From Clostridia bacterium (lineage in GTDB: Bacteria; Bacillota; Clostridia; TANB77; CAG-465), in assembly GCA_017534305.1 (NCBI GenBank), contig JAFWCU010000003.1:1-64000 (forward strand): DNA of 64,000 nt, given 5' to 3'. Below, piece by piece: positions 7,438-10,544 of the stretch. The position numbers were made by a program, and so were the translations under genes. The stretch's first letter is position 1; each line of letters begins with the position of its first letter. A model generated the notes under the pieces. The model was not told where the DNA came from and ran no database searches. It was given only the letters and a program-made list of their open reading frames with translations.

Positions 7438-7866
7438 TTAGAACTCTATCACAAACTTTTCAGATTTATTCTTATCGCTTATTTTCATATCATAGTTTTT
7501 CTTCTCAATAACCACCGGCAACCCTTGAACGTAGTATAACATATTAAATTCATCAAAGATTGTAATTATTGAATCTAGTATACTTGCAAGATATGGATCA
7601 TTTAAGCCTTTTGTATTTTGTCCAACAATGCTTATTTCATTATCTTTGTACTTAATAACAACTTCATTATTCTTTGTATTGAATTTATACACAACATATG
7701 AACCTCTACCATTTTCACATGGTTCCATGTATTCCATAAATTCCCACATAAGTTTTAGTCTAGATTTTACATCGTTTAAAAAGCATCTTTTTTCTTCAAA
7801 TCCCCTTAATCCTTTAACTTCTAAATTAAACTCTCCTCTTTCAAAAGATTCTAGCTCTATTCTCAT
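7438..7866 (-). CDS. Unknown protein, member 1 of a local three-gene paralogous family
   Basis: I do not recognise this family. The start at 7866 gives MRIELESFERGEF, matching the beginnings of its two neighbours (MKIYLEPF, MKIIVKPF); an ATG six bases upstream sits right against the AAAGGAGGG site and is rejected. The 142 residues are predicted mixed alpha/beta with a shared core: beta start, helix, then a strand ending in NEISIVGQN before a helix after NDPYLA. No signal peptide, membrane helix or metal motif is visible. It is the last gene of a unit with the second paralog, which ends 23 bp upstream. Confidence 0.8.
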   Translation of the reverse strand: MRIELESFERGEFNLEVKGLRGFEEKRCFLNDVKSRLKLMWEFMEYMEPCENGRGSYVVYKFNTKNNEVVIKYKDNEISIVGQNTKGLNDPYLASILDSIITIFDEFNMLYYVQGLPVVIEKKNYDMKISDKNKSEKFVIEF

Positions 7867-7889
7867 AGACATCCCTCCTTTAGTTTCAA

Positions 7890-8300
7890 TTATATTCTAA
7901 ATTCCACTCTGTCTTTTCTTGGAGCTTTTTTGTTTACTATTTTGTTAAATCTAAATCTTGAAGCACTAACTTTCCTTCCCTTAAAATATAGATTTATATC
8001 TTTAAATGAATTAACTATTTCTTGAGCTTTGTGAATTATTTCAGGATCATTTTCCTCTTTAATATTTTCTGCAATAATAGTTACTCTTTTATCCACAATA
8101 GTAACATTATATATAACGTCATTTACACTGCTTTCAAATTCAAATACAAGCTCACCATTTTCTTCATAACTTGCTTCTTTAAAGTACATTACTCCTTCAA
8201 GTTTCTCTTTAACATATGCAACCAGCTCATCTACCGATACATCTCCTCTAACATTAAAGCTTATTTCTCCCTTTGAAAAAGGTTCTAAATAAATCTTCAT
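7890..8300 (-). CDS. Unknown protein, member 2 of a local three-gene paralogous family
   Basis: This 136-residue protein of unknown function starts MKIYLEPFSKGEISF and has AGGAGGT upstream. It shares layout with its neighbours: an N-terminal strand, a helix (VDELVAYVKEKLE), strands (ELVFEFES and YNVTIVDKRVTIIAEN) and a helix after ENDPEI. The phrase VTIIAENIKEENDPE lines up with ISIVGQNTKGLNDPY in member 1 and ISIYAKNCRSLDDDR in member 3. It is preceded by a perfect consensus promoter and probably co-transcribed with member 1. It looks cytoplasmic. Confidence 0.8.
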   Translation of the reverse strand: MKIYLEPFSKGEISFNVRGDVSVDELVAYVKEKLEGVMYFKEASYEENGELVFEFESSVNDVIYNVTIVDKRVTIIAENIKEENDPEIIHKAQEIVNSFKDINLYFKGRKVSASRFRFNKIVNKKAPRKDRVEFRI

Positions 8301-8440: not shown

Positions 8441-9052
8441 TTAACTATATGATAAAACATCTGAACCATCATAAATATTATATAGCATATCAAAACATAA
8501 AGAAGTATTATTAAAGAATGAATAATTATAGCTAGAATCGGTAAAATAAGATTTAAAAATCAAATAGTCACCTGTTGTATTATCATGTTTTGCAATAAGT
8601 CCAACTGCCCCGTCCATTTCTATTTCTACATCAATTAAAATGTTATTATGATTTAATATTAAATCTCCTTCTTCATAATACCTTGTAAATGTAGCATTAG
8701 ATACATGAATTATTCTTTCATGATACTTAAAACACTCAACTATTTCACTCAATATGTGTAATATTTCCTTAAACTTAAGAGCAATTCTATCATCGTCTAA
8801 ACTCCTGCAATTTTTTGCATAAATACTTATTTCTTGATTTGCTATTGTTATCTCATAGTTTACACCAGCGTAGTTATTTGTAAGTACTTCAAAGCACAAC
8901 TTGTACTTGTTATCATAATATTTTGTTACTCCATATTCAAGCCCAACCCTAAAGTATTCCTCACACTTTTGAACTAACTCATAAAACTCTACATCTCCTT
9001 CAAGTTTTAATTTTAGTCTAGCCTTATTAAATGGTTTTACTATAATTTTCAT
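8441..9052 (-). CDS. Unknown protein, member 3 of a local paralogous family, with an extra C-terminal part
   Basis: The start at 9052 (MKIIVKPFNKARLKL) has AAAGGAGG eight bases upstream; a TTG two codons earlier is not favoured. Residues 1-130 resemble members 1 and 2 (helix FYELVQKCEEYF, strand ISIYAKN, then DDDRIALKFKEIL). The last about 70 residues are unique, Asn/Tyr-rich and acidic. No known motif is visible. It has its own consensus promoter and terminator, so it is a single-gene unit. Confidence 0.8.
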   Translation of the reverse strand: MKIIVKPFNKARLKLKLEGDVEFYELVQKCEEYFRVGLEYGVTKYYDNKYKLCFEVLTNNYAGVNYEITIANQEISIYAKNCRSLDDDRIALKFKEILHILSEIVECFKYHERIIHVSNATFTRYYEEGDLILNHNNILIDVEIEMDGAVGLIAKHDNTTGDYLIFKSYFTDSSYNYSFFNNTSLCFDMLYNIYDGSDVLSYS

Positions 9053-9113
9053 ACACAAATCCTCCTTTTAAAAATTATTTTACAAGGTTGAATATCTTCT
9101 AAATGTATGAAAG

Positions 9114-9150: not shown

Positions 9151-10167
9151 TTATAATGAACGTCCTATTGCTGTTGCAATTGGTTTGATATCCTCTATTA
9201 TTGTATCAAACATATCTGGTGTTACAGACTGTGCCCCATCAGATAAAGCTTTGTCTGGATTATTATGTACTTCAATAATTAAACCATCCGCTCCTATAGC
9301 AACAGCAGCTTTAGATAATGGTTCTATCATCCACCTAATTCCCGCAGCATGAGAAGGATCTACAATTATAGGTAAATGACTCATTTTTTTAATTAAAGGA
9401 ATTGCAGATATATCTAATGTGTTTCTAGTTGCTGTTTCATATGTTCTAATTCCTCTTTCACATAAAATAACATTAGGATTTCCTTCACTCATAATATATT
9501 CAGCTGCCATAAGCCACTCTTCAATTGTAGCTGAAAGTCCCCTTTTTAAAAGTATAGGTTTGTTCAATTTTCCAAGTCTTTTTAAAAGATCAAAATTTTG
9601 CATATTTCTAGAACCAACTTGAATTACATCTACTTCTTTTTCATATAACTCTATATCATCTGTAGACATTATTTCTGTAACTATTTTAAGTCCTGTTATT
9701 TCTCTTGCCTTTTTTAACAATTCAAGTCCTTCATATTGAAGACCTTGGAAATCATAAGGAGAGGTTCTAGGTTTAAAAACTCCCCCTCTAAGATATTTGG
9801 CACCAGCATTTTTTACTCTTTTTGCAATTTCTATTATTTGCTCTTCAGACTCAACAGCACAAGGTCCTGAAATAATCATAAGATTATCTCCGCCAACAGT
9901 TCTCTCCTCATCTATAGATATTATAGTGTCGTCTGGATGAAACTTTCTATTTGCCCTTTTATATTTTTCTGTCTCATCTATAATATCTATTACACCTTTC
10001 ATACAAGATATAACATTTCTATCTATATCTTTGGAATCTCCAATAATACCAATAATCTTACAATCTGATGCTTCATTTTCTACAATTATTCTTTCCTCTT
10101 TTTCTATCATTTTCTTAATTGCATCAATAACACTTTCTTTAGTTTCCTTTTCTAATTTTATAATCAT
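9151..10167 (-). CDS. aroF: 3-deoxy-7-phosphoheptulonate (DAHP) synthase with N-terminal ferredoxin-like domain
   Basis: The 338-residue enzyme condenses PEP and erythrose-4-phosphate in the first step of the shikimate pathway. Residues 1-70 form a short ferredoxin-like domain like that of the Thermotoga enzyme, which gives Phe/Tyr inhibition there. The catalytic part follows with MIISGPCAVES, GAKYLRGGVFKPRTSPY, QVGSRNMQNF, LLKRG and VDPSHAAG. It stands alone, without other aro genes nearby. It is preceded by a leader peptide rich in Phe and Tyr and by an attenuator, so synthesis is probably tuned to charged tRNA-Phe/Tyr as well as to allosteric feedback. The start has AGGAGG seven bases upstream. 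Confidence 0.95.
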   Translation of the reverse strand: MIIKLEKETKESVIDAIKKMIEKEERIIVENEASDCKIIGIIGDSKDIDRNVISCMKGVIDIIDETEKYKRANRKFHPDDTIISIDEERTVGGDNLMIISGPCAVESEEQIIEIAKRVKNAGAKYLRGGVFKPRTSPYDFQGLQYEGLELLKKAREITGLKIVTEIMSTDDIELYEKEVDVIQVGSRNMQNFDLLKRLGKLNKPILLKRGLSATIEEWLMAAEYIMSEGNPNVILCERGIRTYETATRNTLDISAIPLIKKMSHLPIIVDPSHAAGIRWMIEPLSKAAVAIGADGLIIEVHNNPDKALSDGAQSVTPDMFDTIIEDIKPIATAIGRSL

Positions 10168-10183
10168 AATAATACCTCCTCAA

Positions 10184-10216
10184 ACAAAAAAGAGTCTCAT
10201 TTCAATATGAGACTCT
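10184..10216 (-). terminator. Attenuator in the aroF leader
   Basis: On the minus strand AGAGTCTCAT pairs with ATGAGACTCT around ATTGAA, followed by TTTTTTG, ending only about 15 bases before the aroF ribosome binding site. Its 5' arm and loop (10200-10212) are complementary, with one G-U, to 10304-10316 inside the leader peptide gene. This gives two mutually exclusive structures. Confidence 0.88.
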
Positions 10217-10279
10217 CAATAAATTCATTATTTAATTTATATGTTACTAGCCAATTACTATTTATCCGGAATTAAAAAT

Positions 10280-10414
10280 TTACACTCGTAACATTTCTCT
10301 ACTTCCCATATTGAAATATATATTTTTTAAGCATGCAAAATATCTTACGCTAAAATAAAAGCCTAAGAATCCAAAATAATATACAAAATAGTTATTATTT
10401 AAGTTTGCATTCAT
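10280..10414 (-). CDS. aroF leader peptide, Phe/Tyr-rich, for transcription attenuation
   Basis: This 44-codon frame begins MNANLNNNYFVYYFGFLGF and ends MLRV. It holds six Tyr and seven Phe, eleven of them within residues 9-26, and is preceded by AAGGGGGA nine bases upstream. Codons 33-38 (Tyr-Phe-Asn-Met-Gly-Ser) contain the strand that can pair with the terminator arm. Ribosomes stalled at the earlier Phe/Tyr cluster would leave this strand free and allow read-through into aroF. Ribosomes that reach the stop would cover it and let the terminator form. This is inference from sequence, but codon content, position and base pairing agree. Confidence 0.82.
   Translation of the reverse strand: MNANLNNNYFVYYFGFLGFYFSVRYFACLKNIYFNMGSREMLRV
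10304..10316 (-). promoter_or_regulatory. Antiterminator strand in the aroF leader
   Basis: The minus-strand 13-mer TTTCAATATGGGA is complementary to TCTCATATTGAAA in the attenuator (10200-10212) with a single G-U pair, and pairing can extend by one A-U. Confidence 0.75.
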
Positions 10415-10448
10415 TACATATATCCCCCTTCTTGAAGTATTGAAAACA

Positions 10449-10477
10449 TATTAACACAAAATATAAATTTTTGTCAA
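10449..10477 (-). promoter_or_regulatory. Promoter of the aroF leader
   Basis: On the minus strand TTGACA and TTAATA with a 17-bp spacer, about 35 bp before the leader peptide start. Confidence 0.75.
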
Positions 10478-10501: not shown

Positions 10502-10544
10502 TAAAAAAGTAGATAAAGCGTAAAACTAATACACTTTATCCACT
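10502..10544 (-). terminator. Terminator of smc
   Basis: A fifteen-pair stem (AGTGGATAAAGTGTA with TACGCTTTATCTACT, two G-U pairs) followed by TTTTTTATT on the minus strand. Confidence 0.9.

Follow-up and report, generated by a model that had tools for sequence, protein, structure and literature searches.

How is aroF, the gene for DAHP synthase, controlled in a clostridium that carries no T-box at this locus? In Bacillota, T-boxes or TRAP are commonly named as the regulators of aromatic amino-acid genes. The window, which is the whole stretch of DNA analysed here (64,000 nt; positions 1-64,000 of contig JAFWCU010000003.1, assembly GCA_017534305.1), comes from a gut Clostridia bacterium (TANB77; CAG-465). 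No match to the T-box family (RF00230) was found in the window, and none to a T-box, a riboswitch or any other Rfam family in the aroF leader with the threshold relaxed; the preliminary description of this DNA had already stated that the locus has no T-box. The region upstream of aroF has the layout of a leader-peptide attenuator, and judged from its sequence, aroF is very probably regulated by ribosome-mediated transcription attenuation through an aromatic leader peptide. In the direction of transcription, the parts of the locus are the following:

10448-10477, minus strand: promoter-like site, -35 TTGACA and -10 TAATAT with an 18-nt spacer and an extended TG before the -10 (10/12 matches)
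10424-10431, minus strand: Shine-Dalgarno-like sequence GAAGGGGG of the leader ORF, seen in the sequence; similar sites precede the leader ORFs of the congeneric loci L002-L004
10280-10414, minus strand: leader-peptide ORF of 44 codons, MNANLNNNYFVYYFGFLGFYFSVRYFACLKNIYFNMGSREMLRV, with orthologues in L002-L004 and related leaders across the class
10343-10368, minus strand: conserved hairpin within the leader ORF, supported by covariation; its loop holds the Phe-Tyr-Phe codons (10352-10360)
10304-10317, minus strand: 5' strand of the antiterminator, AUUUCAAUAUGGGA, codons 33-37, pairing with 10199-10212
10242-10293, minus strand: hairpin between the two antiterminator strands, from predicted folding only; its 5' arm overlaps the leader stop codon
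10199-10212, minus strand: 3' strand of the antiterminator, overlapping the 5' arm and loop of the terminator (pairing, covariation and folding)
10185-10217, minus strand: intrinsic terminator, stem-loop 10190-10217 plus T-run, from a terminator scan; also before aroF in L002-L004
10175-10180, minus strand: AGGAGG Shine-Dalgarno of aroF, seen in the sequence
9151-10167, minus strand: aroF, type I-beta DAHP synthase of 338 aa with an N-terminal extension (NF006421, E 6e-146; TIGR01361, E 6e-121)

The preliminary description had proposed such a device, and most of its anatomy was recovered. The ORF is as reported, with 13 Phe/Tyr in its 44 codons, 11 of them in residues 9-26. The terminator is also present, although 9 bases rather than 15 separate the end of its stem from the aroF Shine-Dalgarno, and the antiterminator strand does lie within the ORF, with a pairing of 14 bp, one pair more than the 13 claimed. 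aroF appears to be transcribed alone, because a separate consensus promoter (9142-9114, 12/12) lies before the gene that follows it. That promoter precedes the first gene of a trio of adjoining unknown proteins (7438-7872, 7890-8300 and 8441-9058, all on the minus strand), which have similar N-termini (MRIELESFERGEF, MKIYLEPFSKGEI and MKIIVKPFNKARL) and are perhaps a tandem family; a search for NCBIfam matches to the three proteins returned none. On the other side of the locus, a terminator-like hairpin (10508-10544, minus strand) directly follows smc and separates it from the aroF leader.

Single elements of this kind can arise by chance in AT-rich DNA. The promoter scan of the window ran at background (17 sites found, 16.7 expected), so that the promoter-like site, present as claimed and with its -35 kept in four congeners, is not significant alone. 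Likewise, 3 of the 837 short ORFs of the window contain 11 or more Phe/Tyr within 18 residues, and Phe/Tyr codon richness alone was rejected as proof for this reason. The claim thus rests on comparison. Folding of the leader region is better than that of all 200 shuffles (z -3.6), and the elements together with their conservation in sister species are far beyond chance.

Within the genus, 28 genomes were sampled, and aroF is found in five of them. The leader precedes aroF in four of these five (the window and L002-L004), each time with the -35 TTGACA, a Shine-Dalgarno, the peptide core FGFLGFYFS and the terminator. In the fifth aroF-bearing congener, G014 (L005, aroF at 1501), the leader is gone and aroF has also lost its N-terminal extension, likely the feedback domain; the aroF of G014 is perhaps a deregulated enzyme. 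Covariation of the pairing between 10304-10316 and 10200-10212 had been set beforehand as a refutation test, and among the four species 7 of the 14 positions of the antiterminator have changed on both sides. The antiterminator strand falls where the ORF varies, towards its 3' end, and follows the terminator in its changes from congener to congener, and the best pairing partner of each leader within the genus is its own terminator. In L003, the reading frame is shifted by +1 (one T) after the leader core, so that the end of the peptide appears unimportant; the shift may be a mutation, slippage or an assembly error. This region of L003 (1284-1331) contains seven consecutive T, against six in L004, and the unshifted frame would place a stop inside the antiterminator strand. 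A possible further pairing would join the 5' end of the leader to the ORF (UACUUC/GAAGUA, 10434-10439 with 10300-10305); by eye it is longer in L002 and L004 and imperfect in L003.

Searched for as an exact pattern, the leader core was matched in this genus only, which suggested a device restricted to it; this view was overturned by the covariance model described below. For the class as a whole, the upstream regions of the aroF genes most similar to that of the window were taken from 245 genomes, a sample biased to close homologues, and a leader was called where a Shine-Dalgarno-preceded ORF had 7 or more Phe/Tyr within 14 residues. By this measure, 53 of the 89 aroF upstreams from outside the genus (about 60%) have a leader. 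Over all upstreams, the count is 65/102, as opposed to 8/2040 in shuffled sequences (0.4%) and 1/102 on the reverse strand. A terminator follows 60 of the 65 leaders according to the script, which missed the terminator of L002, visible in the sequence. A Ser-Asn-Glu stretch (UCUAAUGAGU) closes many of the leaders and base-pairs with ACUCAUUAG of the terminator arm, and across 61 species the normalised pairing energy is -4.5 for a leader with its own partner vs +0.1 (sd 2.3) with foreign partners. Leader codons are therefore kept in relatives, both in the genus and class-wide; their absence there had been named in the preliminary description as grounds for refutation. Its suggestion of a distinct solution of one genome was not borne out: most sampled clostridial aroF genes have a leader of this type, and T-boxes are a minority. 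The Phe/Tyr leader is apparently no local peculiarity but a means of controlling aromatic genes that is widespread in Clostridia.

Many leaders also have a conserved part that the preliminary description had not noticed, a symmetrical hairpin inside the ORF, formed around UUU UAU UUU, with a lower stem of some 5-7 pairs, a single mismatch, GCU/AGC and an 8-nt loop. In an alignment of 16 sequences, 20 cells have changed on both sides vs 7.6 +/- 2.4 in shuffles (0/500 as high), and slid versions all score far lower. In 25 sequences that were not used in model building, the count is 10 vs 3.3 in shuffles (0/500), with the limit that some of these are close kin of each other or of the training set, so that the counts are not independent. 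The covariance model of the hairpin, R2, matches the window at 10324-10370 with 56 bits, the window sequence having been in the training set; the next best match in the window scores 16.6 bits. In a blind scan of whole genomes of the phylum, 11/299 are matched, and 10 of the 11 matches lie before aroF, one match being the window itself. In a blind scan of whole genomes of the class, 55/391 are matched, with one match each. Inspection of 29 class loci placed 27 matches before aroF on the same strand and two before other aromatic genes:

L160, 1501-1547: R2 match, leader element before tyrA-pheA
L185, 1501-1547: R2 match, leader element before aroB, which is followed by an apparent aroA

Since the model finds the element before aroF, tyrA-pheA and aroB, it belongs to aromatic synthesis generally, and its sequence contexts make it look like an element of an aromatic regulon. 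Matches of R2 in L005 and L141 were rejected as leaders, as they are terminator hairpins with U-rich loops. R2 has no match before prephenate dehydratase or at the T-box loci of the genome from which the window comes.

The distribution of T-boxes complements that of the leaders. Outside the genus, a T-box is present at aroF in 8 of 36 upstreams without a leader vs 0 of 53 with one (Fisher p 4e-4). T-boxes do occur in the genome of the window, before pheS, valS, thrS and ileS (contigs C40, C29, C10 and C1; L149-L152), and two of the four reach the gathering score. Judging by these sequences, the same cell appears to read the Phe supply with a T-box at pheS and with a leader peptide at aroF. The leader RNA has no match in Rfam, and the leader peptides have none in Pfam or NCBIfam.

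In the proposed mechanism, RNA polymerase would make the leader with a ribosome following behind. A shortage of charged tRNA-Phe or tRNA-Tyr would stall the ribosome among codons 9-26, leaving the strand at 10317-10304 free to form the 14-bp pairing with the emerging 5' arm and loop of the terminator; this antiterminator pairing would block the terminator, and aroF would be transcribed. Conversely, when charged tRNAs are plentiful, a ribosome over codons 31-40 would cover the strand, the terminator would form, and transcription would end before aroF. Folding with ribosome footprints, applied to a transcript ending after the terminator loop, gave the antiterminator without a ribosome or with a ribosome at codons 9-26, and a ribosome at codons 31-40 blocked it. 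The terminator is preferred once its 3' arm is complete, and the complete leader, at equilibrium, adopts the terminator fold in every case, so that the switch could work only co-transcriptionally. A ribosome at the leader stop codon of the window species would leave the antiterminator strand uncovered; termination would thus depend on timing, unlike in classical attenuation. The hairpin inside the ORF, with its Phe-Tyr-Phe loop, would probably hold RNA polymerase or time it against the ribosome, and in this model it may be the pause site for timing. The idea of a general protector strand that would mask the antiterminator strand had weak support (mean z -0.7) and was set aside. The attenuation reading is based on the elements, their conservation and covariation, the pairings that are mutually exclusive on paper, and the association with aromatic genes; we infer that the promoter is used, that the ORF is translated, that the ribosome stalls for lack of charged tRNA and that the hairpin causes pausing, and the relative weight of Phe and Tyr is likewise a matter of inference.

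The same peptide could be read in other ways. It might arrest the ribosome by its own sequence, as TnaC and the Erm leaders do, and sense an aromatic metabolite rather than tRNA charging. Such arrest would account for a class-wide peptide pattern that goes beyond Phe/Tyr (roughly FYFSxGYFxC, then Lys) and for the W found in 24/65 leaders; however, the conserved stretch largely coincides with the ORF-internal hairpin, which explains its conservation at the RNA level, and leader families such as L086, L090, L105 and L113 keep Phe/Tyr runs without the full pattern. Stalling induced by the product would also act in the wrong direction for a biosynthetic gene, and nascent-chain arrest is accordingly improbable. 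Still further from the evidence is the idea that the 44-residue ORF encodes a small membrane protein with a function of its own or has simply arisen by chance in AT-rich DNA. The peptide is hydrophobic, and the three equally Phe/Tyr-rich short ORFs of the window fit a chance origin, but conservation ends with the core, beyond which L003 is frame-shifted, whereas position, Shine-Dalgarno, terminator and pairing are conserved, and shuffles reach the leader criterion in only 0.4%. We consider this explanation highly improbable.

The rest of the shikimate pathway raises a different doubt. With positive controls, aroB (DHQ synthase), aroE (shikimate dehydrogenase) and aroC (chorismate synthase) were found in 0/28 genomes of the genus. 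Prephenate dehydratase is present in 11/28, including all five that carry aroF. The attenuator and aroF might therefore be a decaying relic, no longer functional in a genus that lacks these enzymes, which would fit the retention of aroF in only 5/28 genomes, the loss of leader and N-terminal extension in G014 and the +1 shift after the core in L003. Decay is nevertheless unlikely, since the aroF frames are intact in all five congeners, with dN/dS of 0.14-0.29 (dS being near saturation), and the compensatory antiterminator changes in four species would not be maintained by a relic. On these sequences, aroF looks to be under purifying selection. Either the genus is losing the shikimate pathway, or DAHP synthase has been put to another purpose. 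It is conceivable, though we hold it only tentatively, that selection keeps a Phe/Tyr-controlled DAHP synthase without aroB, aroE and aroC and that DAHP or the enzyme has another use tied to aromatic supply.

Attenuation of the type proposed for aroF is a kind of control that is already known, from E. coli pheL, from aroR-aroF of Corynebacterium glutamicum and from candidate uORFs in Acholeplasma. The pheA (pheL) and pheST attenuators of E. coli combine a Phe-rich leader with mutually exclusive antiterminator and terminator, the position of the ribosome being the sensor. The clostridial aroF leader has the same logic of leader and exclusive pairing. In contrast to these proteobacterial systems, which control other genes, it has a greater length, a Tyr content close to that of Phe, and an antiterminator strand within the ORF. 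In C. glutamicum, the Phe-Tyr-Phe leader aroR and an attenuator are reported to control aroF in response to Phe limitation, whereas Tyr availability reportedly does not matter (Neshat et al., 2014, cited in PMC11802643; PMC4046766). A Phe-Tyr-Phe leader peptide and an attenuator before a DAHP synthase gene are common to both systems as described there; aroR is actinobacterial and is reported to have three control codons, compared to 13 Phe/Tyr in the clostridial leader. The uORFC-13-1 motif before aroF of Acholeplasma is reported from 24 examples with at least one Phe, in Acholeplasma and environmental sequences only (Brewer et al., 2021, PMC8632094); compared by description, it likewise has, upstream of aroF, a uORF with Phe codon(s), a terminator and an additional base-paired element. 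Two Phe/Tyr uORF candidates at shikimate metabolism genes are given in a figure legend, with five genomes analysed, among them Clostridium novyi (Stav et al., 2019, PMC6429828, Fig. 6b). Going by that legend, C. novyi apparently has candidate Phe/Tyr uORFs of the same kind, and these may be the same element as the clostridial leader, partly glimpsed in 2019. Leader peptides in Bacillota were first reported for histidine genes (Naville and Gautheret, 2010, PMC2965389; PMC9413887); they likewise stand in place of T-boxes, although the genes and the leaders are different. In the main text of openly licensed papers, no description of the breadth of the element, its antiterminator or its nested hairpin was found.

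Most sampled clostridial aroF genes have a leader and never a T-box along with it, which allows a direct test of the swap, within one phylum, from a tRNA-sensing RNA to ribosome-based sensing at one gene. The specific covariance signature, absent from the family libraries searched, makes wide annotation of the element possible, including before tyrA-pheA and aroB. For the genus itself, a DAHP synthase that is very probably under attenuation control, in a pathway whose remainder has been lost, poses a clear physiological question.
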